Below are positions 19,616 to 55,267 of a stretch of DNA of 64,000 nt, piece after piece. The first letter of the stretch is position 1; each line of letters starts with the position of its first letter. The notes beneath the pieces are model-generated. The model searched no databases. It worked only from the letters and a program-made list of their open reading frames with translations, and was not told where the DNA came from. The translations under genes and the position numbers were made by a program. Source of the DNA: Petroclostridium xylanilyticum (lineage in GTDB: Bacteria; Bacillota; Clostridia; SK-Y3); assembly GCF_002252565.1 (NCBI RefSeq), contig NZ_NPML01000012.1, forward strand, positions 62,001 to 126,000, given 5' to 3'.

Positions 19616-20461
19616 TTAGTCCTTGCAAGGTCTTGCGTTATTGAAGACATCCTGTGCACCTTCAAATTCAAATCTTTGAGGTGGGAAGAATTCATCAATC
19701 GGGAACTTGATTCTTTCAAATAATTCGCAAGGATTGTCTTCAGTAGCTGCAATACATTCTTTATCAGGAACGCAGAAATCAAATGCAGGAATGAGCAGCT
19801 GGACATTTCTTTCAATTTTAATAATTGTGAACAATCCAAGAGAAACAAATACCCTCTTTCTTTCTGCACCGGCTACCAATTCATCATCAAAGCAGCTGCA
19901 TACACTTTCAGGTATTCCTGACAGGTCTATATTATCAGTCGGGAACAATCTGTCAGTAATATCAACTAATTTAGCTGCCAGGCATATTGGGTCAACTACT
20001 TCCACTTTAGCTTTTGGCATATTGGTCTTCTTCCAGAGCTGTGGATCAAATGCATCTTCTTTGAATTTGGATTCAAAGATCTTAGCATTACCTTCAGAAC
20101 CGAAGAGGATAACCGTCTTGTCAAATGTAGCCAACCCTTCTACTTCTGTAGGCCTTCCAATACCTGTAAATGCGTCCAGGGTAATTCTGAAGAAAAATTT
20201 AACACTTACTGTGAAAAATCCCCTGTTAAATGGAACAGGCTCTACATCCGGGAAAACCCAGATGATTTCAGCTTTTCTACATTTAACATTTATTGCCCTG
20301 TCAACGATTTCCTGGCCTCTTCTGGTTAAAAATACTCTTAAATCTTCCAGACAGTCTTTTTCCCTACAAGAATCATAAACCTTATCTGTCTGTATGCATA
20401 CAGCTTCTTTGAATCCTGGATGCGCACCAAGAATTGGTCCTGGTTTAAGTTTTTCGCTCAT
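19616..20461 (-). CDS. Unknown Cys-containing protein, paralogue 1; spore-layer candidate
   Basis: A 281-residue soluble protein of no family I can name. It has about ten cysteines, several near the N-terminus in CIQTDKVYDSCREKDCLEDL. The C-terminal part (IIKIERNVQLLIPAFDFCVP then DKEC, ending FPIDEFFPPQRFEFEG) aligns with the protein at 32542-33189, so the two are paralogues. It diverges from a beta-propeller gene, exactly as the second copy does. Upstream is an AC-N16-CATATTATG signal, like the late-sporulation sigma-K promoter, so I infer a structural protein of the spore coat or exosporium. AGGAGG precedes the ATG. Confidence 0.7.
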   Translation of the reverse strand: MSEKLKPGPILGAHPGFKEAVCIQTDKVYDSCREKDCLEDLRVFLTRRGQEIVDRAINVKCRKAEIIWVFPDVEPVPFNRGFFTVSVKFFFRITLDAFTGIGRPTEVEGLATFDKTVILFGSEGNAKIFESKFKEDAFDPQLWKKTNMPKAKVEVVDPICLAAKLVDITDRLFPTDNIDLSGIPESVCSCFDDELVAGAERKRVFVSLGLFTIIKIERNVQLLIPAFDFCVPDKECIAATEDNPCELFERIKFPIDEFFPPQRFEFEGAQDVFNNARPCKD

Positions 20462-20741: not shown

Positions 20742-22280
20742 TTGACTAAGGTCATATCTAATCAATATATGCTTAAACAAGCTTCTAAACAGCAATGGTA
20801 TTTTTTTCACCATACTAATACAGGTATTTGCTTTAAAAAGAAACTGGAAAATGAATGGAGTGATTATGAGATCCTGCTCAAGGATGGACAGGGAGATTTT
20901 GATATTATTATAGATCCTAGAGATAACATACATTTAATTTGCCAGGATAAGCTTGGAAGTATCATCTACCTTATGTATAATGGGCAGCAATGGCACAAGT
21001 ATGTTATCCTGCAAAGTAAAAACAATAAAGCATACCCTAAGTACTTTAAGATGTTGTTCGTAAATGGTTGGATTAACCTTTTTTATGTCATCCAATACAA
21101 AGATAAAAATCTGCTCGTACACCATATACTAGATAATAACAACGTCTCTCCTAATGTTATCGACTATATAGTTACATCAGCCAGGCCTTTTTCCGTTTCA
21201 GCAGAAAACTCAGGCAATATACATATATATTATCAAGATAATACTGATTCCAACAAAATTGGCTACAGGGTGTATATGTGGTCTAAAAAAACATGGAGTG
21301 ATTTTATCTCTATTGATCTGGAAAATTATGATGCAGTATTACCCTATATTATCATAGATCACCAGGACAACATTCACCTTACGTATTTAAAAAAATCAGG
21401 AAAAAATTATGATATCATTTACAAACGCAAGCCTTCCAACAGTTATAACAAAGCTTTGTGGGATAAGGAAGTAGTAGTCTATAACCGTTGCTATGAGGAT
21501 GCTGTTCCTGTGATTATGAAAGTTGATAAACAGCTTTTGATATTATGGCAGCAGGATATTAAAGTACTAAGCAGTTCCTCGGACGATGATGGGATTACAT
21601 GGAGAAAACCTTCACAGTTTATGGCGGGCAGATACGGCAATATAGGACTATTTGGATTTAGAATTCCTGCTTCTATGGATAAAGATAATATCATTTGTGA
21701 CCAATGCTACGGCTATAACACTAATAACGATATAAATTTGTATATAATTTCCAATTATCTTGAACAACTGCCGGCTGCCAAACCTGAACCTGAATTCAAA
21801 ATGTCGGGTTATGAAGTGGAAGAATTTGCAGAAAAACATAAGAATTCCTTCCTGTTTCCTTCTTCTAATCCTTCCGTCCCTGCTGCTTCTCCAGCTGCAG
21901 CATTTTTGCGTTCTTCAACAAGTCAGTCAAATACCGGGGTTGATAATAGCATTGAAAGTACTAAATTAAAGATCATGCTCAATATGCTTCAAGAAGATCT
22001 TTCTCAGACTAAGAAAAAACTATTGGAATTAAGTCAATTTTCTAGAATTGATGAAGACTTAAAAAATATTATAGACGAGCAATACAGAACTGAAATTGAA
22101 AAATTAAAAGTGCAATTCCAACAGCTCTTAGAGAGAATTGCACAAATTGAAAAAATTCAAGACAATATTATCCGTACAGAGCTAGAACGTATTAATAAAG
22201 AAATTACCATTATCAAGCGTAATAACAATAAAACGAGTTTTACAGATTTGATTCATAAGGTAGAGGAAAGCAAAAAATAA
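20742..22280 (+). CDS. Beta-propeller plus C-terminal coiled-coil protein, paralogue 1
   Basis: A 512-residue protein without a signal peptide. Residues ~1-360 contain repeated blade-like segments centred on D-x-x-N-I-H (DPRDNIHLICQD, SAENSGNIHIYYQD, DHQDNIHLTYLK), suggesting a beta-propeller. A Pro/Ser/Ala linker (~370-405) leads to a long coiled coil (~410-500) rich in Lys, Glu, Gln and Leu. The protein at 33498-34943 has the same layout. Both copies diverge from the paralogous Cys-containing proteins, which implies that each pair works together, perhaps as scaffold parts of a spore layer. Translation appears to start at TTG after GGGGGTG. No enzyme signature is visible. Confidence 0.65.
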   Translation: MTKVISNQYMLKQASKQQWYFFHHTNTGICFKKKLENEWSDYEILLKDGQGDFDIIIDPRDNIHLICQDKLGSIIYLMYNGQQWHKYVILQSKNNKAYPKYFKMLFVNGWINLFYVIQYKDKNLLVHHILDNNNVSPNVIDYIVTSARPFSVSAENSGNIHIYYQDNTDSNKIGYRVYMWSKKTWSDFISIDLENYDAVLPYIIIDHQDNIHLTYLKKSGKNYDIIYKRKPSNSYNKALWDKEVVVYNRCYEDAVPVIMKVDKQLLILWQQDIKVLSSSSDDDGITWRKPSQFMAGRYGNIGLFGFRIPASMDKDNIICDQCYGYNTNNDINLYIISNYLEQLPAAKPEPEFKMSGYEVEEFAEKHKNSFLFPSSNPSVPAASPAAAFLRSSTSQSNTGVDNSIESTKLKIMLNMLQEDLSQTKKKLLELSQFSRIDEDLKNIIDEQYRTEIEKLKVQFQQLLERIAQIEKIQDNIIRTELERINKEITIIKRNNNKTSFTDLIHKVEESKK

Positions 22281-22323: not shown

Positions 22324-23226
22324 TTAACCCATTAATTTTTGATGGATTGAGTATAATTTTTCCAGCATTTCAAAAGCATTTATACTGCTTGTACGATTGG
22401 TATTAATGTCGGATACATGATGCTGAGCAGTAACAGGTTGTTCGCATGTTACATCATTAACAGTTTTATTCTCCAAGTCCGATTCCGGCGTTTGTTGTTG
22501 ACTATCCGGTTTTTTAACTGTATTGTATACTCCAACTTCTATATCTTCCTCTATACCTTCTTCTATGCCTTTTTCCAAATCTTCATCCATATAAAAATCA
22601 GTCATTTTTTCAGAAGTATCGCTGCTGCTGGTATCCTTGTCCTGTACATCATCCGGTTGATCATAAGATAATGTCTCTTTTACTGCCTTCTCCAAATCTT
22701 CTATTATACTTTTCTCTACATTTCCCTTGATATTTTCCATATTTTCTTCTATATCATCTTCCATATCTTCCTTCATGCTCTCTATATTACTATTTTGTAA
22801 ATGTATTGGATCAGGTCCTGAAATAGACTGGTAGATGGATTCATAGGTTTTTTCATCACTATTATAATCCTGTACCTCAATCAACTCAACATCTTGAATC
22901 TGATGGTTATCCTTTTCCGTAATCAAGTCATTGCTGCTTTTTACTTTTCTTATACTGTTAAAGTACAGTAATGGGCGGTACGGTAAATTTTTGCAATTTA
23001 TTCGATTCACTCTCTCCTTCTGGAGTTGCAAAGGTTGTGAAGCAGGTTGATAGCTTTCTTTCTGGACGTTATCCCCTTGGGTACTACCCATTTTTTGTTT
23101 TTGGGTCTGCTTCTCATCATTTTTTTGCGTTTCATAATCTTGTTTGGTTTGGACTGATCTACTATTATTAAAATACGGTAATGGACGGTACGGCAGATTA
23201 CTACACTTTATCCGATTCATTTTCAT
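22324..23226 (-). CDS. Acidic low-complexity protein with duplicated NLPYRPL motif
   Basis: A 300-residue hydrophilic protein, probably largely disordered. It begins with MNRIKCSNLPYRPLPYFNN, and the same motif returns near residue 73 as VNRINCKNLPYRPLLYFNS; each copy has one Cys. The middle (~150-230) is very rich in Glu/Asp with Met-Glu-Asp repeats, and the C-terminus ends in a short helix. No family is recognised. It is the last gene of a seven-gene minus-strand set that starts at a sigma-K-like promoter, so a spore-layer role is inferred. AAGGAAG precedes the ATG. Confidence 0.6.
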   Translation of the reverse strand: MKMNRIKCSNLPYRPLPYFNNSRSVQTKQDYETQKNDEKQTQKQKMGSTQGDNVQKESYQPASQPLQLQKERVNRINCKNLPYRPLLYFNSIRKVKSSNDLITEKDNHQIQDVELIEVQDYNSDEKTYESIYQSISGPDPIHLQNSNIESMKEDMEDDIEENMENIKGNVEKSIIEDLEKAVKETLSYDQPDDVQDKDTSSSDTSEKMTDFYMDEDLEKGIEEGIEEDIEVGVYNTVKKPDSQQQTPESDLENKTVNDVTCEQPVTAQHHVSDINTNRTSSINAFEMLEKLYSIHQKLMG

Positions 23227-23276
23227 AATTTATAAACTTCCTTTCTTTATATGTATTATATAAAATGGTAAAAATC

Positions 23277-23615
23277 TTATTTATTGTAGCTGGTGATTTT
23301 CTTCATAATTGAATACATCTCTCTTTCATTTATATTACATTTCTTTATAAGAGACTTTGTTTTTTCTAACGGGTCGGCTGTAGCATAAAATTCTTTATTT
23401 GCTTCCAATTCTTTTAGCATTTTTTCATAGATTACTTTCTCACTAGGAAATAAAACATCCTCTAGTTTGACTTCATAGGATTTTGGCCTTTTATGGGTGC
23501 CTCCGTTATCAATATAATTTTCAAACCATTTATGTCCATTCTTACATTCAAACCTGACTCTCATCGGTTCATTTATTTTTATAACCTCTGTCTGATTACA
23601 AATGGCACACTTCAA
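23277..23615 (-). CDS. Small protein with N-terminal Cys pairs (possible zinc ribbon)
   Basis: About 112 residues. CAICNQ at the start and FECKNGHKWFENYI at ~25-38 could form a small zinc-binding finger; the rest is a charged helical region. A GTG nine bases upstream is possible, but AAGGAAG is better placed for the TTG. The gene lies between two small genes of the same operon. Function unknown. Confidence 0.6.
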   Translation of the reverse strand: MKCAICNQTEVIKINEPMRVRFECKNGHKWFENYIDNGGTHKRPKSYEVKLEDVLFPSEKVIYEKMLKELEANKEFYATADPLEKTKSLIKKCNINEREMYSIMKKITSYNK

Positions 23616-23628
23616 ATTTATCACTTCC

Positions 23629-23913
23629 TTACCGCCTTGAAATTCCTAATACTTTGACTCCCGGTTTGATTTCTATTGCCTGAAACGGGTGGTCATTTAT
23701 CCATATGGAACCTTTCTCATCAACTCTTAAATCTATATCTAAACCTTCAAAATTTAAATTTTCTAAAGCGTATGGTGAGATAAACACCAATACTGAATTT
23801 AGTTGTACTGGTGATATATTATTAGTTCCGGCTAAATTTGCCTGGTTAGAAAGGTTGACCAAAAAGTTATAGAATTTATTTTCAATCACCTCTGAATCTT
23901 TAGATGACTTCAT
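23629..23913 (-). CDS. Small protein with NQAN motif, paralogue of the 24230 gene
   Basis: About 94 residues. The segment FLVNLSNQANLAGTNNISP (~15-33) resembles the start of the protein encoded at 23952-24230 (NSSNQANVHSANQSG), and both continue with a beta-rich second half containing a 'G-x-L/I-x-I-N' pattern (KGSIWINDHPF here, SGELEINGLD there). AAAGGAGGG lies before the ATG chosen; a longer start at 23955 would overlap the upstream stop codon. Function unknown; it may be an assembly subunit. Confidence 0.58.
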   Translation of the reverse strand: MKSSKDSEVIENKFYNFLVNLSNQANLAGTNNISPVQLNSVLVFISPYALENLNFEGLDIDLRVDEKGSIWINDHPFQAIEIKPGVKVLGISRR

Positions 23914-23951
23914 ACAACTTATTCCCTCCTTTGCACGATGTAAAGAAAATG

Positions 23952-24230
23952 TCATTCTTCTTTACTACAAGTCATTTTTTTATCTGAATAAACGCGAATA
24001 TTATTTTCATCACTCAAAATATCTTTATCCAAACCATTAATCTCAAGTTCTCCAGATCTAGTAATGTTTATAGATACCGGAATTTCATCTGTTTGCCCAT
24101 TGTCTCTCCTTAAATGCTCTAAACCCAGTATAACTACAAAATTGAACTGGGATAAGCCAGACTGGTTAGCACTGTGAACGTTCGCTTGATTTGAAGAGTT
24201 AAGTATGGTCGATAATTTTTTTTGGTCCAA
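23952..24230 (-). CDS. Small protein with NQAN motif, paralogue of the 23913 gene
   Basis: A 92-residue protein starting at TTG with GAGGTG upstream. An Asn/Gln/Ser-rich N-terminus (NSSNQANVHSANQSGLSQFN) is followed by FVVILGLEHLRR and a beta-rich C-terminal half. The Asn/Gln-rich start also recalls the NQNAQQ core of the very small proteins at 25310-26391. No known domain. It belongs to the operon 22324-25162. Confidence 0.58.
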   Translation of the reverse strand: MDQKKLSTILNSSNQANVHSANQSGLSQFNFVVILGLEHLRRDNGQTDEIPVSINITRSGELEINGLDKDILSDENNIRVYSDKKMTCSKEE

Positions 24231-24256
24231 AATTTATCACCTCACACCATTGTATT

Positions 24257-24517
24257 TTAAGTCTGTTCGTTTAACATTTGTTTTAATTTTTCCGCTTTTT
24301 CTTCGTTTGTCAAAGTTTTATCAATACGCAATTGATGCATTTTCATTAACAATTTCAACGGGTCGATATTTCCAATATCTTTATTCATCTTAATATTAAA
24401 ATCTCCTATCGTTACCTCTGTTGGATCAATTTTATATTTTTTATCTTTCTTCTTGTTTGGTTCAATACCGTTTTCAACTTTTATATCATCAGCTTGCCTT
24501 TGACTTTCTTCCGACAT
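24257..24517 (-). CDS. Small charged protein, paralogue of the 25716 gene
   Basis: An 86-residue protein. Its C-terminal half (NIDPLKLLMKMHQLRIDKT then EKAEKLKQML) matches in pattern the C-terminal half of the protein at 25498-25716 (KVDAFELLSKLASVRMADT then MDKIKILQSM). The N-terminal half is Lys/Glu-rich and disordered-looking. The shared helix suggests a common binding partner in the two adjacent operons. The start has AAGGAGATGAG upstream. Confidence 0.58.
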   Translation of the reverse strand: MSEESQRQADDIKVENGIEPNKKKDKKYKIDPTEVTIGDFNIKMNKDIGNIDPLKLLMKMHQLRIDKTLTNEEKAEKLKQMLNEQT

Positions 24518-24624
24518 AGTCTCATCTCCTTACTCTCAAGTTAACCTGTATAAACCAAATCTACACAGGTCAAGGATCTTAGTTCTGCATTTAAACTTTT
24601 CTTCACCGCTCCCAACCCGCTACT

Positions 24625-24930
24625 CTAATATTTAACCGTAGTCCTTTCTGTCTTATTGGGCTCTTGTATATCTGTAATGACTGCAGTTTCTCCCTTACTT
24701 GCTTTTTTCTGCTGCTCTATCATTTTCCTGGTCTCTTCTCCGGTATTTAATTTGTTATATTTCTCAACACTTACGCTTAAATTTTTATATTTCGTCTTAT
24801 TTTCGTCATAGAGTTCACCATCGATAAAAACATTTCCGTTTTTATCGATTTTAATTTCTGAAGGTATATCTTTTCGTTTCCTCGTGCTTGTTATTGTAAT
24901 CCAGTTGTCACTTTTAGCGTTATTATTCAC
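24625..24930 (-). CDS. Small hydrophilic protein, unknown
   Basis: A 101-residue charged protein that probably starts at GTG with AAAGGAGG upstream. It has a beta-type segment IKIDKNGNVFIDGELYD (~27-43), reminiscent of the G-x-L/V-x-I-x-G pattern in its operon neighbours, and a Lys/Glu/Thr-rich tail. No family or signal peptide. It is the second gene of the 22324-25162 operon. Confidence 0.55.
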   Translation of the reverse strand: MNNNAKSDNWITITSTRKRKDIPSEIKIDKNGNVFIDGELYDENKTKYKNLSVSVEKYNKLNTGEETRKMIEQQKKASKGETAVITDIQEPNKTERTTVKY

Positions 24931-24964
24931 GGCTTCTCTTTACCTCCTTTTGTCTGTATAACTC

Positions 24965-25162
24965 CTAACTCTCACCTGTAGCTTCATTACCTCCGGCACT
25001 ATTGATTTTAACTGCAGAATCGGATTGTGTTATGACAGAATATGCTGAAAGAGTCATATTAGATTGTTGGTTTGTATTGACCTGATCAATAATATCTGCT
25101 TGCATATATATATCATTTGATTTTTTTGATTCTGGTAATTTGCCAGCAGCCTGTTTCGGCAT
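24965..25162 (-). CDS. Very small Gln/Asn/Ser-rich protein, first gene of operon
   Basis: A 65-residue protein. The longer frame from 25246 is unlikely, because AGGGGAGG lies before the ATG at 25162. The sequence IIDQVNTNQQSNMTLSAYSV is rich in Asn, Gln and Ser, and the C-terminus is Gly/Asn-rich. It is preceded by a sigma-K-like promoter (25206-25233) and starts the operon that ends at 22324. Function unknown; a structural role in a spore layer is an inference. Confidence 0.55.
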   Translation of the reverse strand: MPKQAAGKLPESKKSNDIYMQADIIDQVNTNQQSNMTLSAYSVITQSDSAVKINSAGGNEATGES

Positions 25163-25205: not shown

Positions 25206-25233
25206 CATACTATGCATATCAAACTTAAAAGGT
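25206..25233 (-). promoter_or_regulatory. Sigma-K-like promoter of the 25162-22324 operon
   Basis: Minus strand: AC, 17 bases, then CATAGTATG, about 45 bases upstream of the first start codon. It lies just downstream of the terminator of the preceding small-protein operon, which supports an independent transcription start. Confidence 0.55.
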
Positions 25234-25248
25234 TCGCATCATACATAA

Positions 25249-25297
25249 TAAAAAAGACCCTCCTCGTAGAAAGAGCTGCGAGAAGAGTCCTTTTTAT
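25249..25297 (-). terminator. Terminator of the small-protein array
   Basis: On the minus strand, AAAAAGGACTCTTCTCG pairs imperfectly with CGAGGAGGGTCTTTTTT around a short loop and ends in TTTTTTATT. It directly follows the last array gene (stop at 25310). Confidence 0.75.
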
Positions 25298-25309
25298 TAT
25301 ATTTTTCTT

Positions 25310-25465
25310 TTATGCGCAAATATTATCATTATCAAGGTTAGTAGCAAATCCGAATTGAGCTTCTAAAATGTTCAGTACCTGAGCTGCTATAAGGACTAAG
25401 ATTTGCTGAGCATTCTGGTTTACAACTTTCTGATTGATACAGCTAGCTACAAAAATATCCGGCAT
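25310..25465 (-). CDS. Array protein E: 51-residue DIFVASxINQK family
   Basis: A 51-codon gene that usual size cut-offs miss. It begins MPDIFVASCINQKVVNQNAQ and ends FATNLDNDNICA, differing from array protein B (26006-26161) in only a few residues, including a Val-to-Cys change and a new Cys near the end. AGGAGGGAA lies at proper distance from the ATG. The core is one amphipathic helix (about residues 12-38). It is the last gene of a five-gene operon. Function unknown; a self-assembling spore-layer subunit is my inference. Confidence 0.65.
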   Translation of the reverse strand: MPDIFVASCINQKVVNQNAQQILVLIAAQVLNILEAQFGFATNLDNDNICA

Positions 25466-25497
25466 GTCGTTCCCTCCTCTATACTTAATAAGTCAGC

Positions 25498-25716
25498 TTA
25501 TTTTTCTACCATAGACTGTAATATTTTAATTTTATCCATTGTAGTAGCTTCTGTATCTGCCATTCTGACAGAAGCAAGCTTTGATAACAATTCAAATGCA
25601 TCTACTTTATTGTCTATTTCCTCTGCTTCTATGCCATAGCCATTGACAGAAAAATTCAAAGGATTAAACTTTTTTGAGTTAAGGGTTAAACCTTCTTTAC
25701 TGAATCCTATTTTCAA
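25498..25716 (-). CDS. Array-linked small protein D, paralogue of the 24517 gene
   Basis: A 72-residue protein starting at TTG with AGAAAGGAG well placed upstream; a slightly longer frame to 25737 would swallow that site. It has a beta-rich first half (LKIGFSKEGLTLNSKKF) and a helical second half (VDAFELLSKLASVRM) shared with the protein at 24257-24517. It lies inside the array of INQK-family genes but is not a member of that family, so it may be a partner or cap protein. Confidence 0.55.
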   Translation of the reverse strand: MKIGFSKEGLTLNSKKFNPLNFSVNGYGIEAEEIDNKVDAFELLSKLASVRMADTEATTMDKIKILQSMVEK

Positions 25717-25745
25717 CTGTAACATCTCCTTTCTCAAACAAATTT

Positions 25746-25970
25746 TTATACGTTTACAACATCACTATCATCATTGGTGGAGAATCCAAACTGAGCTTCA
25801 ATGATATTAACAACCTGAATAGCTATAGCAACCAGGATCTGTTGTGCATTCTGGTTTACAGCCTTTTGATTAATCACACTGGCTACAAAGATGTCCCCTG
25901 AACCTGTTGACAAAATTGAAGGTTTCTTTGGCATAGCACCGTTTATATATTTATAAGCCAGGCTATTCAC
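25746..25970 (-). CDS. Array protein C: DIFVASVINQK family with extended N-terminus
   Basis: A 74-residue member of the array family. An extra ~24-residue N-terminus precedes GDIFVASVINQKAVNQNAQQ; the shared helix is followed by AQFGFSTNDDSDVVNV. It starts at GTG after AGGAAGGAG. The family core is Gln/Asn-rich at the start of a hydrophobic helix and acidic at the end, a plan suited to stacking or polymerising. No database family is recognised. Confidence 0.65.
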   Translation of the reverse strand: MNSLAYKYINGAMPKKPSILSTGSGDIFVASVINQKAVNQNAQQILVAIAIQVVNIIEAQFGFSTNDDSDVVNV

Positions 25971-26005
25971 ACTTAGTCAACTCCTTCCTCATTTTTTCCT
26001 CGTTT

Positions 26006-26161
26006 TTATGCTTTTATAGTATCATTGTCGAGATTAGTAGCAAATCCGAATTGAGCTTCCAGGATATTTAGTACCTGAGCTGCTATAAGGACTAAGATTT
26101 GCTGAGCATTCTGGTTTACAACTTTCTGATTGATTACACTAGCTACAAAAATGTCTGGCAT
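26006..26161 (-). CDS. Array protein B: 51-residue DIFVASVINQK family
   Basis: The 51-residue protein is nearly identical to array protein E: MPDIFVASVINQKVVNQNAQ, then the helix core and FATNLDNDTIKA. A longer frame reaches 26218, but the bases before the ATG at 26161 include GAGGTAAC at a proper distance. Recent gene duplication is likely for the B/E pair, while A and C form a second subtype ending FSTNDDSD. Confidence 0.65.
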   Translation of the reverse strand: MPDIFVASVINQKVVNQNAQQILVLIAAQVLNILEAQFGFATNLDNDTIKA

Positions 26162-26214
26162 TTTTGTTACCTCGAATCCCACGCCTTCAGGCGTGTGGAG
26201 TGTCAACAGGATAG

Positions 26215-26391
26215 TCATACGTTTACCGTATCGCTATCATCATTGGTAGAAAAACCAAATTGAGCTTCAGTAAGGTTGATAACCTGGGCAGCCACAGCAA
26301 CCAAGATTTGTTGTGCATTTTGGTTTACAGCTTTCTGGTTGATTACGCTGGCTACAAAAATGTCACCCGAACAGGAATTTGTGTTCGCCAT
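26215..26391 (-). CDS. Array protein A: DIFVASVINQK family, first gene of operon
   Basis: A 58-residue protein: MANTNSCSGDIFVASVINQK, then the common Gln/Asn-rich amphipathic helix and an acidic end, FSTNDDSDTVNV. GGGAGGTG lies before the ATG; a longer frame to 26499 overlaps the promoter region and is improbable. A sigma-K-like signal lies at 26424-26450, only ~35 bases upstream. It heads the operon A-B-C-D-E (26391 to 25310). Confidence 0.65.
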   Translation of the reverse strand: MANTNSCSGDIFVASVINQKAVNQNAQQILVAVAAQVINLTEAQFGFSTNDDSDTVNV

Positions 26392-26423: not shown

Positions 26424-26450
26424 TATAATATGTAGTACAGTTAATAGTGT
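26424..26450 (-). promoter_or_regulatory. Sigma-K-like promoter of the small-protein array
   Basis: Minus strand: AC, 16 bases, then CATATTATA, a full match to AC-N16-CATANNNTA. It suits a short leader before array gene A and suggests late mother-cell expression. Confidence 0.6.
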
Positions 26451-26667
26451 TACACATTATGTAAATTTTTTTATTTTGAATACATAGTAATTTACTCAAA
26501 AACTATGGCAAGACAGCATTATAGTCCAAAATGGATATGGAAGAATCAACTTGAACCTTTGTTGGAACATAATAATAAATGCAAAGGCAGCCACAGCAGT
26601 GACTGCTTTTTTGCTCCATTATTAAATTTAAGACTAAATACCCTAAGCTTTCTTAGAACTTTAATAT

Positions 26668-26991
26668 TTACTGTTTAAGTCCATTCATTTTTAAAATTTG
26701 GTTCATTTCATACACTGCCGCCTCAATAATCTTATCAATTTGTTCATCGGTCAATTTTCCTTTGGTGAAATTCTTTAATACCTGTACCGCCTCTTGTTTT
26801 TTATCCGCACCATGTCCTCCCCCAATCGTCTGTTCTATAGCCGTAACTACAGTCTTTGCAAGGGAGCAGTAGACTTTAAGATTCTGTTCACCTATCTTTG
26901 CTCTAATATACTGTATGGCATATCCCCCAACAATAAGAATAAGAATTTGTATCAACACCGTTAGCAACTCGGCTAGTAACTCACCAATCAT
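26668..26991 (-). CDS. LL-H-type phage holin-family protein
   Basis: A 107-residue protein with a single N-terminal membrane segment (~5-25, LAELLTVLIQILILIVGGYA) and a charged helical C-terminal part with AKTVVTAIEQ and QEAVQVLKNF, the layout of the LL-H holin family in Clostridia. Holins make membrane holes that let murein hydrolases reach the wall. It sits 12 bp after an amidase gene, the usual lysis-cassette order, but no other phage gene is present. AGGAGGGG precedes the ATG. Confidence 0.75.
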   Translation of the reverse strand: MIGELLAELLTVLIQILILIVGGYAIQYIRAKIGEQNLKVYCSLAKTVVTAIEQTIGGGHGADKKQEAVQVLKNFTKGKLTDEQIDKIIEAAVYEMNQILKMNGLKQ

Positions 26992-27003
26992 AAAGAACCC
27001 CTC

Positions 27004-28170
27004 CTATTTCATATTTTTTAATCGCTGTTGAGTAATAATATATTCACCCCATGTAACAGGTACGTCCAGGTCATGGTCTTCCAGGACTATACCCTTTGCT
27101 TTCCATTCATCAAAGGCGTCCTGTGCAAAATGCTTCGGCTTTTCGTCTACTTTAGTCTGTAAAATATCTTTCCATATTTTTACGATGCTTTCACCATATC
27201 CTTGCCCGGGTACAGCCCATTTTCCGTTTAAATCTTCCCAGTAGGGTGCACTTCCACGTTGGACCAGATGAAAGCGCGGGTCTACCTGCTTCGTTTTTAA
27301 GGGACCGGTGGTTGCATAAGCCTTTAAATGTTGTATCTGTGCCCTAATTCCTTCTTCAGGAGTTGCAAAGACTGCACCTTTACTATTTTCATCTGTAGCA
27401 CCTAATCCCGCAAAATTATTCTGATTTTTATCAATACTTCCACCAAATTTAAAATATCCGGTTTCTTTAATAGCCTGCGCAAAAGCAATATCCCCCTTCA
27501 CACCTTCCTGTTCTCCAATTATTAAAAATAATTCTGCCAGATATGGAGCATCCGGGTTAACACCTCTCACAAACTTATCCATCTGCTGTGCTGTAGCTTC
27601 TGCCTTTCCCATAATAGGAGTTTTATTCGAAAACACAGGTTTAAATCCGAAATATTCACACATTACTTTTGTCAACTGATTAGTAAAAGCGTCCTGCCAC
27701 TGTGTGTTGTTTAATTTATCTTCTTCTTCAGGATTAGATATAAACATAACTTCAATCAGCACTGCTGGCATTTTTGTCTCCCGTAATACGTAAAAATTAG
27801 CGAATTTTACTCCCCGGTCCTTATTTTTGTTAAACTCTATCATCTTGGTCTGCAGCACCTGAGCCAGTTTGTATGCCTTTCCGCCGCCGGCAAGACAAAA
27901 TGTCTCTGTCCCACTAGCTCTTTTATCTTTCGAACTGTTGCAATGAATACTAATGAAATAATCCGCCCGATTTTTATTTGCAATATCACATCTTGGCTGT
28001 AGGTCAATATACCGGTCATCCTCTCTGGTGCAAACAATATCCATTCCACTTGCAATGAGTTTGTCTTTGAGTTTTAGCGAAAGAATTAAATTTATATCTT
28101 TCTCTTTGCTGTAGCTCCCCAATGCACCCGGATCTTTTCCCCCGTGCCCCGGGTCAATAACTATCTTCAT
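27004..28170 (-). CDS. N-acetylmuramoyl-L-alanine amidase with glucosaminidase-like domain
   Basis: A 388-residue cell-wall hydrolase with two catalytic domains and no signal peptide. The Amidase_3 domain (~1-180) starts IVIDPGHGGKDPGA, supplies further metal ligands in SIHCNS and contains the catalytic-site region VLIEVMFISNPEE. The second domain (~200-345) shows IAFAQAIKETGYFKFGGSI and NNFAGLGA, as in glucosaminidase/lysozyme-like families. A ~40-residue tail with WGEYI repeats a common wall-binding end. Lack of a signal peptide plus the adjacent holin gene suggests holin-dependent release, such as in mother-cell lysis or a retained phage cassette. GGGAG precedes the ATG. Confidence 0.88.
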   Translation of the reverse strand: MKIVIDPGHGGKDPGALGSYSKEKDINLILSLKLKDKLIASGMDIVCTREDDRYIDLQPRCDIANKNRADYFISIHCNSSKDKRASGTETFCLAGGGKAYKLAQVLQTKMIEFNKNKDRGVKFANFYVLRETKMPAVLIEVMFISNPEEEDKLNNTQWQDAFTNQLTKVMCEYFGFKPVFSNKTPIMGKAEATAQQMDKFVRGVNPDAPYLAELFLIIGEQEGVKGDIAFAQAIKETGYFKFGGSIDKNQNNFAGLGATDENSKGAVFATPEEGIRAQIQHLKAYATTGPLKTKQVDPRFHLVQRGSAPYWEDLNGKWAVPGQGYGESIVKIWKDILQTKVDEKPKHFAQDAFDEWKAKGIVLEDHDLDVPVTWGEYIITQQRLKNMK

Positions 28171-28261: not shown

Positions 28262-28450
28262 GGGTGTCAAGTGTCGGTGTCAAGGGGACGGGTTGTTTGT
28301 CGGTGTCAAGGGGACGTCGGTGTCAAGGGGACGGGGTTGTTGACAACATGTTGTCAAACGGGTGTCAACAACCCCGTCCCCTTGACACCCACGGGGTTGT
28401 TGACAACATGTTGTCAAACGGGTGTCAACAACCCCGTCCCCTTGACACCC
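28262..28450. repeat. Palindromic tandem repeat, 60-bp unit
   Basis: The left part holds three GGTGTCAAGGGGACG units. From 28331 a 60-base unit is repeated exactly twice (28331-28390 and 28391-28450). Each unit is itself a palindrome: ACGGGGTTGTTGACA... pairs with TGTCAACAACCCCGT, with TTGACAACATGTTGTCAA in its centre, and ends CCCCTTGACACCC. It fills the gap between the amidase and the sugar dehydrogenase gene. The sequence is far more GC-rich than its surroundings. Confidence 0.9.
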
Positions 28451-28556
28451 ATAGTTTTCATTTACCATAAGGTCTTTAGATGGGTGTGCAAAATGTCCCG
28501 GATGGGGGTGATAAACAAATCATTTTTAAGCTCGTAACCTTTTGTGCATATACAAT

Positions 28557-32541: not shown

Positions 32542-33189
32542 TTATTGTCCACAAGGGTATATATACTGGGATTGTGCCGGGTAAAAATCATCAGGAAATG
32601 CAGCGGAATCGAAATCATCACATGCACTGACATCTGAAAAGTCTTTACATTCTCTTGGTGGAACACAATATGGAAATACTTGGTCAAGCTTCAGCTGCAC
32701 CCTTCCTATTACCTTAGGAATGACAAATACTCCTATTGCAAGCGTTAATATGCATCCATCATTACACTCACATTCTACTATTTGGTCTAATACCTCTCCC
32801 CTTGTTTCAACAATAATATTAAATTTAAATTCAGACCTTGTATCTGGATGGTACATTACTATATCAAGAGGTATTTCTGGAAGTGTTCCAGGGATTTCAA
32901 AACATTTACCATTGCAGGTAGCTACAACTATGTAGTTTGTTACTACAGTCGCCTTTATTCTTTTGCAACCTTCCGGAAGTACAGAACTGTCTAGAACTTT
33001 TAGAGAACCTGGTACTATTACTCCGTTTTCAAAACGCACTTCGATGTCGCAAAAATTAGGGTCTATTCCATCTGGCAGTTGTACTTTTATATCATCGAAG
33101 CAAACTTTCTTTAGGCAGCTATCAAAAACCTTATCCACAAGTATGCATTCAAAATTTCTTTCGTATAATCCATCAAAACCGTTAGCCAT
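32542..33189 (-). CDS. Unknown Cys-containing protein, paralogue 2; spore-layer candidate
   Basis: A 215-residue soluble protein with about fifteen cysteines. LVDKVFDSCLKKVCFDDIKV near the N-terminus and VFVIPKVIGRVQLKLDQVFP then CVPPRECKDF near the C-terminus match the same regions of the 281-residue protein at 19616-20461. The middle is shorter and the C-terminus (FPDDFYPAQSQYIYP) ends in Tyr-rich sequence suited to cross-linking. AAGGAGG precedes the ATG. A sigma-K-like signal lies far upstream (33355). I infer a spore coat/exosporium structural protein. Confidence 0.7.
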   Translation of the reverse strand: MANGFDGLYERNFECILVDKVFDSCLKKVCFDDIKVQLPDGIDPNFCDIEVRFENGVIVPGSLKVLDSSVLPEGCKRIKATVVTNYIVVATCNGKCFEIPGTLPEIPLDIVMYHPDTRSEFKFNIIVETRGEVLDQIVECECNDGCILTLAIGVFVIPKVIGRVQLKLDQVFPYCVPPRECKDFSDVSACDDFDSAAFPDDFYPAQSQYIYPCGQ

Positions 33190-33381: not shown

Positions 33382-33497
33382 TACTACCAGCTGTAATTTA
33401 TTTTTATTTGATATTTAAGGAAAGTCCATAAAAAAAAAGCATATACATATAATATGAAAATAGTGCGGAGCGGACAGTGGGGAGTGTGGTGATCATC

Positions 33498-34943
33498 ATG
33501 CAGCAAAAAATGTTTCTTATAAAAAAAAGCAACGGCATTATCTACAACTTTTATTTTTCGAAAACAGGAGGGATTTGCTATAAGCTCTACTCTTTACACA
33601 ACAACCAAAAGGTAGACCCTTTTGAAATAAGTGTAATTGAAGAAAAAATTCTTGAGTTCTATGTAAATATCGATGAAGAAGATACCATTCATATCTTATG
33701 CCTTACTGAAAGCGGGGAACTTAAATATTTCGTTAATAAAGAAAATATGTGGAACAGCAAAGTATTTTCACGCTTTGACTTGCGTTCAAACATTGTAAAA
33801 TCTTTATTTATTCATGTCACCAATAAAAAAATATACATCATATATGCAGCCAGTAATCTGATGAATGTGAATCTATGGACAATCTATTTTAAATCCTGGG
33901 ACGGGTCTAAATGGAACAATATAAATATTGGTATGACTATATGCGATAAGGAATTCCCACCTTATTGTTTAGCACTTGATACTCAAAATAATATTCATGT
34001 GGTTTATAAAAACTCCAGTAACAGAGGTACTCAAATATTTTATAGAAAGTTTCACATGCAGTTTTCTCTATGGAGCACACCTGAAAAAACTATAAATTCC
34101 CCTGAAGCTGTAGGATTCTACTATATTTTCTGTGACACACGCAATAATCTTCATCTGGTATGGTCAACTTCAACCAGTACTAACTTTAAAATGCTATATA
34201 AAAAACTTAATACTAAAGTATTAAATAATAAGCATTATGATAGAATTATTTCAGTACATATGTCCAACCATCCATATTTGCAGCCTGTAATATTTGAGAT
34301 AGAACAAAAAATATGGGTAATGTGGAGAAACCAGGGCGAATTTTCAGGATGTGAAATAGACTCATCAGGCCTATCCTGCAGTTCTGTCTCATCCATCCAA
34401 CATGCCGGCAGTTCCTCTCCCATACTTGTTGAGTTTATCAATAATTATGAAATAGAAAAACAGAGCTTTAGTGGACGTTTATTATATGGGGTTGTAGACG
34501 ACTTTATTGATTTAATACTTCCTAAAAGTTACTCTTGTGATTTTTATGAAAACATACCTACAGAAGCATCAGAATTAGATCCTGAAGAGTTTTTAGCTAA
34601 TGAATATTCCCCTCAGAATTTAGTCCAAGAATTGGTTACAGTAAATGAAAAGGAAAAACAGGTTGCTGCCATTCAAACACTAAACGAGCAATTACCCTCT
34701 AAAGTATCCGAAAAATTTGATGAGATTAAATTAGATAATCAAAAAATTGTAAAAATATTAAAAGAAGTTAAAGAACAATTGGATAACCAGGATGTAATAA
34801 AAATCCTCGAAGAAATTAAAACGCAAAATGTATTGCTTACGGAACTTATAGCAAAAACGCTTGAAAAAAATGCAATAACAGAATCCGTTGAAACATCAAA
34901 AAATGATGGAATGTTAAAAAAAGTCTTTAACTTTTTTAAGTAA
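33498..34943 (+). CDS. Beta-propeller plus C-terminal coiled-coil protein, paralogue 2
   Basis: About 481 residues with the layout of the protein at 20742-22280. Blade-like repeats centred on D-x-x-N-x-H occur (DEEDTIHILCLT, DTQNNIHVVYKN, DTRNNLHLVWST) over ~1-340, then a linker and a Lys/Glu-rich coiled coil (~390-460), ending in a short amphipathic helix, KKVFNFFK. No signal peptide. It diverges from the second Cys-containing protein gene. The start is uncertain among several GTG/ATG codons at 33477-33498; GGTG lies before the ATG chosen. Confidence 0.62.
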   Translation: MQQKMFLIKKSNGIIYNFYFSKTGGICYKLYSLHNNQKVDPFEISVIEEKILEFYVNIDEEDTIHILCLTESGELKYFVNKENMWNSKVFSRFDLRSNIVKSLFIHVTNKKIYIIYAASNLMNVNLWTIYFKSWDGSKWNNINIGMTICDKEFPPYCLALDTQNNIHVVYKNSSNRGTQIFYRKFHMQFSLWSTPEKTINSPEAVGFYYIFCDTRNNLHLVWSTSTSTNFKMLYKKLNTKVLNNKHYDRIISVHMSNHPYLQPVIFEIEQKIWVMWRNQGEFSGCEIDSSGLSCSSVSSIQHAGSSSPILVEFINNYEIEKQSFSGRLLYGVVDDFIDLILPKSYSCDFYENIPTEASELDPEEFLANEYSPQNLVQELVTVNEKEKQVAAIQTLNEQLPSKVSEKFDEIKLDNQKIVKILKEVKEQLDNQDVIKILEEIKTQNVLLTELIAKTLEKNAITESVETSKNDGMLKKVFNFFK

Positions 34944-52604: not shown

Positions 52605-53354
52605 TTATACCTGCGCATTATAGTAAACGTCGAACGTACAGGTTACACCGCTTGTTTCATAGAATAATCGCGTATACTGCAAGAATTTAGCTGCTACAAG
52701 CGTAGTTTTTTGGCCTGCTGCTACACCTACCGGACCACTTGTATCGTCCACAAAATAGCTGGCAGTAGTTGTTGGACTAATCTGCAGTTGGACGGTTACC
52801 GTATTGGATCCAGTATTAAATACATAGAAGGAATACATGCTTTGCTCACCGGTATTTTGTACGAATATGCCGGCTGAGTCGATAACTCCTGCTACTGTTG
52901 TATAGCTTTCAGTAAACAGGCGTGAGGACAATTTTATACTATCTGTCGCTGCTGATAATGCTCTTATATCAAGATCTTCAGCAGTTACTGTTACTACTGA
53001 GTTCCAGATAGTAATGCTGTCGGTTGTTCCGGTTATCGGCCTGATGTCAAAGTTTTCGGCAGTCACTGTTACTACTGAGTTCCAGATGGTAATACTGTCG
53101 GTTGTTCCGGTTATCGGCCTGATGTCAAAGTTTTCGGCAGTCACTGTTACTACTGAGTTCCAGATGGTAATACTGTCGGTTGTTCCGGTTATCGGCCTGA
53201 TGTCAAGGTTCTGAGCTGTTACTGTTACCGTACCTAAATCCAATCTACCGCTGGAATCCGTGAGGATCGCTACTGTATTACCGTTTCCATCCACACCGCT
53301 TATTTGCGTTTTAAGTTGACTGGCAGTTCCATTAAACACTAGATTATTTGGCAT
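52605..53354 (-). CDS. DUF6385 protein with 26-residue tandem repeats
   Basis: A 249-residue protein. The N-terminal ~45 residues end in GRLDLGTVTVTAQNLDIR; then the unit DIRPITGTTDSITIWNS plus a VVTVTAENF linker repeats three times, with a degenerate fourth copy (~45-145), probably a beta-solenoid-like stalk. The C-terminal ~100 residues (YSFYVFNTGSNTVTVQLQIS then FLQYTRLFYET) are a DUF6385 domain. The repeats are exact or nearly so at DNA level (78-bp period). AAAGGAGGTG precedes the start, and a sigma-K-like promoter lies at 53398. The Thr/Ser-rich units and the neighbouring TPR-GT suggest a glycosylated spore-surface protein. Confidence 0.8.
   Translation of the reverse strand: MPNNLVFNGTASQLKTQISGVDGNGNTVAILTDSSGRLDLGTVTVTAQNLDIRPITGTTDSITIWNSVVTVTAENFDIRPITGTTDSITIWNSVVTVTAENFDIRPITGTTDSITIWNSVVTVTAEDLDIRALSAATDSIKLSSRLFTESYTTVAGVIDSAGIFVQNTGEQSMYSFYVFNTGSNTVTVQLQISPTTTASYFVDDTSGPVGVAAGQKTTLVAAKFLQYTRLFYETSGVTCTFDVYYNAQV
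52976..53230. repeat. 78-bp tandem repeats inside the DUF6385 gene
   Basis: Three copies with CTGATGTCAA landmarks at 53041, 53119 and 53197 (exactly 78 bases apart), plus diverged flanking units. Each encodes one 26-residue DIRPITG repeat. Copy number may change by slippage. Confidence 0.9.
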
Positions 53355-53397
53355 CACTTCTCACCTCCTTTCCAGGAGGAATAATAAAATTCTAGTT

Positions 53398-53463: not shown

Positions 53464-54327
53464 TTACTTTTGCGCTTGATACCATATTTTAACTATTGAT
53501 GCTTCTGAGGTATCTACATTTCTAACCGCCATTCGTGTGAACTTTGCAAAACAGTAAGGAACAATAGCAGTCATTCCGCCAGGCTCGATAATTACATTTC
53601 CATTATCATCTATAAAATCTGCCCTATTAGGACTAATTTGTAATTTTGCAGTAACAGGATGAGGGCCTGCATTCTTGATAAAATAAGTTATGGTTTTCAT
53701 CAATGAAGTGTTCATTGTAGATGAATAAGCATACATATCACCTACCCTAATCTCTTCCACAGCTTCAACAAATTCAGTAGGTACTGCTTTACATTCACAT
53801 CCACACTTGCATTTCATCACATATTTTACTTCTACCATAGGCATAAATGTTTTGCCGGAATCAATCAATACTTTTGCAAAAGTTGCATCCTTTATTTCAT
53901 CATTTTTTAAAATCAAGCCATAATTTATTAGTTCATGATTATACCACTTCTTAACAATTTCGGTTATATCAAATGTATACTGACCTGCTTTGTTGATGTT
54001 TATACTTCCGCTGGATAATTCCGAACTAAATAAAGGTTGATTGCTCCATGTAACTGTATCCACCGCCCATGGTTCTGTTATAACATAGCATGTTACTTCA
54101 TTAGGTTGTCCTGCCCCTACCGCAGTTACATACATCTTGAAACTTGCTTCTATTATTATGGCATCTTCCGGTATAGCAGTAATAGGAAATTTTATTAATA
54201 TTCTATATATATGACTTAAATCGTACCTTCCCAAACATGCAGCCGAAACATTATGGTAATTTTTTGAAGGATTATTCCGATTAATATATACAATCTGTAT
54301 CTGAGGTCTAATAATAATTGATTCCAT
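53464..54327 (-). CDS. DNRLRE-like domain fused to a DUF6385-like domain
   Basis: A 287-residue protein. Residues ~1-175 look like a DNRLRE/CBM96-type beta-sandwich: LIKFPITAIPEDAIIIEASF, WAVDTVTWSNQPLF, FDITEIVKKWYNHELINYGL. After a Cys-rich link (KCKCGCECKAV, ~178-188) comes a DUF6385-like domain: TYFIKNAGPHPVTAKLQISP then YCFAKFTRMAVRNVD. No signal peptide, as expected for a protein placed on the spore by the mother cell. GGGGG lies before the ATG at 54327. It has a full sigma-K-like promoter and is next to the DUF6385 repeat gene. Confidence 0.75.
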   Translation of the reverse strand: MESIIIRPQIQIVYINRNNPSKNYHNVSAACLGRYDLSHIYRILIKFPITAIPEDAIIIEASFKMYVTAVGAGQPNEVTCYVITEPWAVDTVTWSNQPLFSSELSSGSININKAGQYTFDITEIVKKWYNHELINYGLILKNDEIKDATFAKVLIDSGKTFMPMVEVKYVMKCKCGCECKAVPTEFVEAVEEIRVGDMYAYSSTMNTSLMKTITYFIKNAGPHPVTAKLQISPNRADFIDDNGNVIIEPGGMTAIVPYCFAKFTRMAVRNVDTSEASIVKIWYQAQK

Positions 54328-54417
54328 ATGCAACCCCCTTTCATCCCATACTAGGAATAGCTCTCCAGCCTTATAAAAATTAAATGACCTTTGCTCAAAT
54401 TGAAAATCGCCTTTACT

Positions 54418-54484: not shown

Positions 54485-55267
54485 TTATCTTCCTATAAAC
54501 ATCTGCACATAAATTTTTCCATATTTCGGACTATCAGCAATTCCAATTCCTATATAGTTATAATTCGGATTAAGTATGTTTTTCCTATGTCCTTCAGAGT
54601 TCATCCAGGCATTATGCGCTCTTTCCGCTGAAGTATTTCCTGCCAGGTTCTCTCCGGCATACTTATAGCTTACACCAAACTGCTTGAGCATATCAAAAGG
54701 AGAACCATAAGTAGGTGAGGTATGTGAGAAGTAGTTCTTTTCAACCATATCTTTTGCTTTAAGATTTGCTACTTCCATTACCTTCATATCTACCTTGAGC
54801 GGCTGTGCCCCTACTTTCGCCCTTTCGGCATTGGCAAGGTCAAGTATTTTTTGTGCTTCTGCACTTATCTGTCCATCCGGTTGTTCTGGAGCAGGTGCAG
54901 GCGTTGGTGCCGGATTTTGTGGAGCTGGCTTTGGTGCCGGCTGACTGTTCGGTGGATAATAAGGCTTTACATATTTTCCCGAAACAACACCAACAGTGTC
55001 ATTGTTCATGTGTATAATATACCAATCTCCTAGTTTACCAATACAGTCTACAATTTGGCCCTTATAAACAACACCTACTTTAGTGAAGTATGTTGCCGGA
55101 CCTGACCTTACATTAAGACCTGCTGCAGTAGTAACTTGCAATTGAGCTGGTATATTCGTACGGCTAAAGGGTGTTTTTGCAGCCGCCGCAACAATAGAAG
55201 ACGAACTGCTAACAAATACTGTGCACAGTACTGTTAAAATAATTAAAAATGATAATGTTTTCTTCAT
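54485..55267 (-). CDS. Secreted SH3b plus CAP (YkwD-like) protein
   Basis: A 260-residue protein: signal peptide (~1-29), a bacterial SH3 domain (~42-102) with AGLNVRSGPATYFTKVGVVY, a Pro/Ala linker (~103-130) and a CAP domain (~137-258) with ILDLANAERAKVGAQPLKV, FSHTSPTYGSPFDML, AGENLAGN and GHRKNILNPNYNYIGIGI. YkwD-type CAP proteins are frequent in spore formers, some in spore coats, but their activity is unclear. No sigma-K-like motif is seen upstream, so it may be a vegetative wall protein. Confidence 0.87.
   Translation of the reverse strand: MKKTLSFLIILTVLCTVFVSSSSSIVAAAAKTPFSRTNIPAQLQVTTAAGLNVRSGPATYFTKVGVVYKGQIVDCIGKLGDWYIIHMNNDTVGVVSGKYVKPYYPPNSQPAPKPAPQNPAPTPAPAPEQPDGQISAEAQKILDLANAERAKVGAQPLKVDMKVMEVANLKAKDMVEKNYFSHTSPTYGSPFDMLKQFGVSYKYAGENLAGNTSAERAHNAWMNSEGHRKNILNPNYNYIGIGIADSPKYGKIYVQMFIGR

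Follow-up and report, generated by a model that had tools for sequence, protein, structure and literature searches.

A conserved cassette of tiny genes, very probably of sporulation, in Petroclostridium xylanilyticum and other Bacillota

Introduction

What kind of system is encoded by a row of very short, closely similar genes, and does the row stand alone? The question is raised by a block in 64 kb of P. xylanilyticum DNA (the window, that is, the whole stretch analysed; all coordinates below are positions within it), which a preliminary description had read as an operon of four 51-74-residue paralogues and one partner at 25310-26391. The cassette to which this block belongs is a real, conserved system, absent from the family libraries we searched and very probably one of sporulation; here we describe its genes, distribution, and predicted regulation, and weigh what it might build.

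Results

A larger cassette, of which the block is the front half

We confirmed all five open reading frames of the block on the reverse strand: the four array paralogues A, B, C, and E, and the partner D. The block holds as described, but its limits are not those of the unit, which runs on to the genes F-L at 22324-25162; the neighboring operon, already suspected of belonging with the array, does form part of this conserved unit. The cassette lies entirely on the reverse strand and consists of eleven or twelve tiny genes, with a front half A-(B)-C-D-E followed by a hairpin and then by F-G-H-I-J-K-L (Table 1). For A and B, the list of open reading frames gives starts at 26499 and 26218, upstream extensions that are unlikely to be the true starts; the GTG start of C is supported by ATG-started homologues, which begin MNSLA. 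The N-terminal extension of C, visible in the array alignment, is kept in most C copies (for example, in loci L016, L018, and L036).

Table 1. Genes and regulatory features of the cassette in the window
Feature	Position	Strand	Length (aa)	Remarks
Sigma-K-like promoter, array operon	26424..26454	-		AACAC, spacer, CATATTATA; -10 box 26424-26432
Array protein A	26215..26391	-	58	Orthologues in L011-L014, L016, L037
Array protein B	26006..26161	-	51	MPD start
Array protein C	25746..25970	-	74	GTG start; N-terminal extension, M-x-x-L-A-x-x-Y type
Partner D	25498..25725	-	75	H homologue
Array protein E	25310..25465	-	51	Final array gene
24-bp hairpin	25243..25302	-		Boundary of array and accessory operons; MFE z -7.1
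Second sigma-K-like promoter, upstream of F	25206..25236	-		AAC, 17 nt, CATAGTATG
F	24965..25162	-	65	Core DIIDQxNTNQQSNMTLSxxSVITQ; kept in 12/12 loci
G	24625..24930	-	101	Beta-hairpin motif IxIDxxGNVxIDG, common to I/J
H	24257..24517	-	86	Helical motif, D-like
I	23952..24230	-	92	TTG start; J homologue
J	23629..23913	-	94	Length counted from internal ATG; I homologue
K	23277..23624	-	115	N-terminal CxxC...C zinc-ribbon-like part in most copies
L	22324..23226	-	300	Low complexity/disordered by composition; C-terminal D/H-type motif NAFEMLEKLYSIH

Distribution and chromosomal surroundings

Lack of conservation in other genomes had been set beforehand as a refuting result, and the cassette passed this test: it was found, its gene order almost unchanged, in 11 other Bacillota loci (L011-L019, L036 (G231), and L037 (G505)), whose hosts include Alkaliphilus, a Peptococcaceae, and a Halanaerobiaceae. 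Since 11 other genomes encode the same proteins in almost the same order, the array is not a chance observation. The tally is at least 12 genomes, the contigs having been scanned by exact short patterns, which gives a lower bound; the 12 loci are not all independent, since L012 and L014 are closely related. Variation is limited: the order is B-D-E-C in L036; the array has between two and four copies per genome (two in L017 and L019, three or four elsewhere); the L019 locus stops after F because its contig ends there; K is conserved in all 11 loci long enough to reveal it; and gene L follows as the twelfth gene, 3′ of K, in most loci.

The flanks differ from family to family, according to the gene listings and their cross-comparison. 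For example, the genes nearby include xseA and one for a polyprenyl synthetase in L011, L012, and L014, but one for homoserine dehydrogenase in L013 (gene names assigned by eye). An order kept in 12 genomes within different surroundings marks the cassette itself as the functional unit. Its distribution is patchy: convincing matches were found in 3 of 398 genomes sampled across the phylum (the window's own counted), and matches in 2 of 148 close and wider relatives and in 5 of 98 genomes of one class. No match was found among the phages, plasmids, and viral contigs searched, and an origin from phage or plasmid was rejected. SpoIVA is encoded in 11 of the 12 cassette hosts, but also in 336 of the 398 sampled genomes of the phylum, and its co-occurrence was for that reason dropped as evidence.

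In the window, a REP-type intergenic element is what the nested GGGTGTCAACAACCCCGTCCCCTTGACACC repeats with GTTGACAACATGTTGTCAAC-like palindromes at 28266-28455 look like.

Array proteins are near-identical, weakly charged, and predicted to be single helices

The core DIFVAS-x-INQK-x-VNQNAQQ...EAQFGFxTN is present in all four array proteins, as first described, and the tails are of two types, ...NDDSDxVNV in A and C and ...NLDNDxI in B and E; B and E are 94% identical. As DNA, the four copies make up a single direct-repeat family of 158 nt, 68-88% identical to the reference copy, and a search of the genome of the window found these four array copies only. Within the cassette, conservation is highest in the array proteins (identity of about 76-80% for A, B, and E): median identities to the window are 80% for A, 76% for B and for E, 68% for F, 60% for C, and 56% for D, followed by G (55%), J (51%), K (45%), I (43%), and H (40%). 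Comparison of the window with L016, a locus of the same family, gives a dN of 0.17-0.35 per gene (except for the variable H, 0.63) and a dS that is above 1 or saturated, a combination that suggests that the genes are translated and kept by purifying selection.

A single-chain AlphaFold model of an array protein predicts one helix, at residues 2-38 (mean pLDDT 78, pTM 0.42), followed by an acidic tail. The 36-residue core holds only 3-5 charged residues and 6-11 asparagines or glutamines, and the tail 2-5 acidic residues. The second half of the helix is hydrophobic (19-residue mean hydropathy 1.2-2.1, up to 2.07), and the array alignment places conserved Q, N, and E within this hydrophobic stretch. 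The helix had been called amphipathic, a claim that we reject, the hydrophobic moment being low (0.09-0.37).

In a tree of the array cores, which is of low resolution and modest support, the paralogues tend to cluster by genome, with A beside C and B beside E in the window, and likewise in L016, L019, and L036. This clustering suggests homogenization of parts that pack together; with cores grouping by genome while C copies keep their N-terminal extension, the pattern looks like concerted evolution. The earlier proposal of co-assembling subunits is plausible in the light of the extreme conservation, the grouping of copies within genomes, and the single-helix model. Two further ideas failed: subtypes fixed by position, since the tree has no clean A, B, C, and E clades; and a common origin of the array with F or with I/J, suggested by NQ patterns in common, which profile comparison does not support.

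Predicted sigma-K promoters and a conserved hairpin

In 11 of the 12 loci, all but L018, the sequence CATANTATR precedes the first array gene by 30-79 nt; the background rate of 0.022 per 190 nt predicts about 0.27 such boxes over 12 loci. In most loci AC is found 14-17 nt upstream of this -10 box. The published sigma-K consensus is [a/c]AC[a/c] N16 CATA N3 TA (PMC5749712), and the array promoter matches it well, as AC - N16 - CATANNNTA-like and in the right place, which bears out the sigma-K-like promoter of the preliminary description. Upstream of F, a strict -10 box is found in 5 of the 12 loci (the window and four others), with near matches in the others. From these motifs we infer use of sigma-K for the cassette in vivo, and its expression seems to begin late in sporulation.

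A hairpin lies between E and F in all 12 loci, its sequence different each time, with z values of -7.1 in the window, -6.4 in L036, and -0.9 to -3.5 in the others. It may be a terminator or attenuator, or a 3′-stabilizing element; since the hairpins of some loci have no U-run, it may stabilize the A-E message and not only terminate. Either role would favor output of the subunits over that of the accessory proteins.

Similar boxes are found elsewhere in the window. Two paralogous divergent gene pairs, 19616-20461 (reverse strand) with 20742-22280 (forward strand) and 32542-33189 (reverse strand) with 33477-34943 (forward strand), each encode a Cys-containing protein of 215-281 aa and a BNR/propeller-like protein of 488-512 aa, with CATANTATR-type boxes between the partners; they are probably further sporulation genes. 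The cassette of L016 is likewise followed by this divergent pair, and that of L018 by a homologue of the propeller protein. On the reverse strand, 52605-53357 and 53464-54333 each encode a DUF6385 protein near a reverse-strand CATANTATR site (53406 and 54426); both are likely spore-surface proteins, and one of them also has a CBM96/DNRLRE domain; 54485-55267 (reverse strand) encodes a YkwD-family SCP/CAP spore protein (TIGR02909 above cut-off) with an SH3-like N-terminal region.

Accessory proteins and internal paralogy

Profile comparison makes D and H homologous (93% probability) and likewise I and J (97%), and G shares with I/J a short beta-hairpin motif (49-73%). The helix motif of D and H (DxFExLxxLYxIR type) has its best score no more than 7 residues from the C-terminus in eight of nine L proteins; for three of the eight, the score by itself does not exceed that of shuffled sequence, so the weight rests on the C-terminal position. 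Its recurrence there suggests that D, H, and L use a single docking site. In protein L of the window another short motif occurs twice, as NRIKCSNLPYRPLPYFN and as NRINCKNLPYRPLLYFN, and a motif of this kind is also present in L of L016; it is a possible second docking peptide. A structure model of J (pLDDT 64) was too poor for use.

Comparison with known families and spore structures

No convincing match to the cassette proteins was found in Pfam, NCBIfam, PHROGs, or, by sequence, the PDB, in agreement with the absence of a recognized family noted earlier, and Foldseek returned nothing convincing for both structure models. Several known systems resemble the cassette in outline. The S-ENA and F-ENA fibers are spore-linked, built from subunits of about 10 kDa, and found in Firmicutes including Clostridia, but F-ENA, whose major subunit is DUF4183, has a beta-sheet fold and collagen-like anchors, whereas the array is predicted as a single helix and the cassette has no Pfam match to DUF4183 or ENA. 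The ribbon appendages of Clostridium taeniosporum (P29a/P29b/GP85/CL2) likewise come from a cluster of genes for related proteins with sigma-K consensus promoters, but are made of large DUF11 and collagen-like proteins reported to be without orthologues in other clostridia (PMC5749712). Gas vesicles also combine a small hydrophobic shell protein with several accessory genes, and spore-attached gas vesicles (gas caps) occur in Halanaerobiales (PMC4187190); the array proteins have no match to the GvpA model PF00741 at E<=10, and a run of this model without a positive control matched none of 11 cassette genomes.

Discussion

A proposed late-sporulation assembly cassette and its alternatives

We propose that the cassette is a mother-cell assembly system of late sporulation, driven by sigma-K, whose array proteins co-polymerize as helical subunits and whose F-L proteins assemble or anchor the product; we give this full reading an even chance. 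It draws on what is observed of gene content, conservation (of the promoter and hairpin as well), and paralogy relations. A sigma-K-type RNA polymerase would transcribe the array operon A-E and, partly separately, F-L. The array would yield a large excess of near-identical proteins, each a single helix whose core is almost uncharged and rich in N/Q and aliphatic residues and whose tail is acidic, because the hairpin after E would protect the A-E message and/or limit read-through. They would co-polymerize into a helical fiber, ribbon, or sheet, with B and E as the basic subunit, of which A and C would be variants with extra N-terminal arms. D, H, and L would be adaptors acting through one docking motif, with L as a long flexible tether, and F, G, I, J, and K would serve as assembly or anchoring factors, so that the polymer ends up on or beside the spore. 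The stoichiometry, polymerization, and location of the array product we infer; that the product is a protein structure on or beside the spore is probable.

The alternative that survives best, though unlikely in our judgment, is that the genes encode ordinary, soluble proteins of the coat or interspace that are expressed under sigma-K, work in the manner of the Bacillus GerP operon, whose products serve in coat permeability or germination, and form no discrete polymer. GerP too consists of small spore proteins from one operon, and the two have in common the promoter class, the scale of the genes, and paralogous pairs inside one operon; gerPABCDEF is reported to be linked to germination (PMC2817736). 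However, A-J gave no match to the GerP-family domain or any other coat-family model in Pfam/NCBIfam at E<=10, and the repeat structure of the array, with its conservation above that of its neighbors, favors a major structural subunit.

The hydropathy of the array helix counts against the polymer reading, since it makes membrane insertion possible: the array proteins might enter the mother-cell or outer forespore membrane as an oligomeric channel or a device related to lysis or engulfment. We consider this improbable. In the window a Holin_LLH gene (PF09682, 26668-26991) and an amidase/glucosaminidase gene (27004-28170), themselves adjoining on the reverse strand (26668-28170) with no other phage genes noticed, do lie beside the cassette, but the pair is not beside the L016 cassette and was seen in none of the other listed flanks, and a lysis device made with them was rejected. 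The Q, N, and E conserved inside the hydrophobic stretch also speak against insertion.

It is very improbable that the array is a diverged member of the R-body family, that is, a true homologue of RebB (PF11747) that forms a contractile ribbon in the mother cell. The gross design is alike, 4-6 small helical paralogues being arrayed ahead of further small genes, and so is the composition: Reb proteins have few charges, a core of N/Q and aliphatic residues, and a charged tail (PMC13430693), and their helices are not amphipathic (PMC3583457). Local alignment to a short Reb group reached a z of 2.8 (for example, NQSAQQVLVAVA-AQVLNLI with NQQRGQVLAAAAVAQVLAMI), but this, the best of 23 comparisons with low-complexity sequences, serves as no more than a lead. 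Reb proteins are proteobacterial and about 95 aa long. They are marked by (D)QITD flanked by prolines, KxxxD/E, and NAV/QQQ (PMC13430693); in the array alignment QITD and the prolines are absent, and only a NAQQ-like string is present. The PF11747 profile found no match in the window's genome at E<=10, although it recovered the R. pomeroyi megaplasmid control at E 3e-29, and hhalign against Reb proteins gave probabilities of 0.9% for the array and 0.4% for F. The cassette differs further in its F-L partners, its sigma-K-like promoter, and its Bacillota hosts. With the profile failing beside a working control, and 23 Reb sequences giving only suggestive pairwise similarity, homology to RebB is not detectable and was rejected.

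That the array proteins are leaderless antimicrobial or sporulation-killing peptides is scarcely credible: they are short, leaderless, multi-copy, and carry a hydrophobic helix, but 29 of 33 copies are net negative or neutral, conservation across families is very strong, and the cassette has no recognized transporter or immunity gene.

Significance

Many clostridial spores bear appendages, sheaths, gas caps, or parasporal bodies, structures still in search of their genes. The cassette is a compact and strictly conserved set of genes that is open to test and has a predicted developmental promoter. Standard annotation is likely to pass over its proteins, given their very small size and their distance from the family libraries. 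A bolder form of the proposed assembly system, which we rate as rather unlikely, is that the cassette builds an unseen spore-associated organelle of Gram-positives from alpha-helical micro-subunits, arrived at independently of Reb, GvpA, and ENA proteins, such as an R-body-like springing ribbon, or a gas cap or appendage sheath whose genes had so far escaped notice. The spore-surface polymers of the literature compared here are beta-sheet or collagen-like; if the array does polymerize, it would add an alpha-helical class to them.
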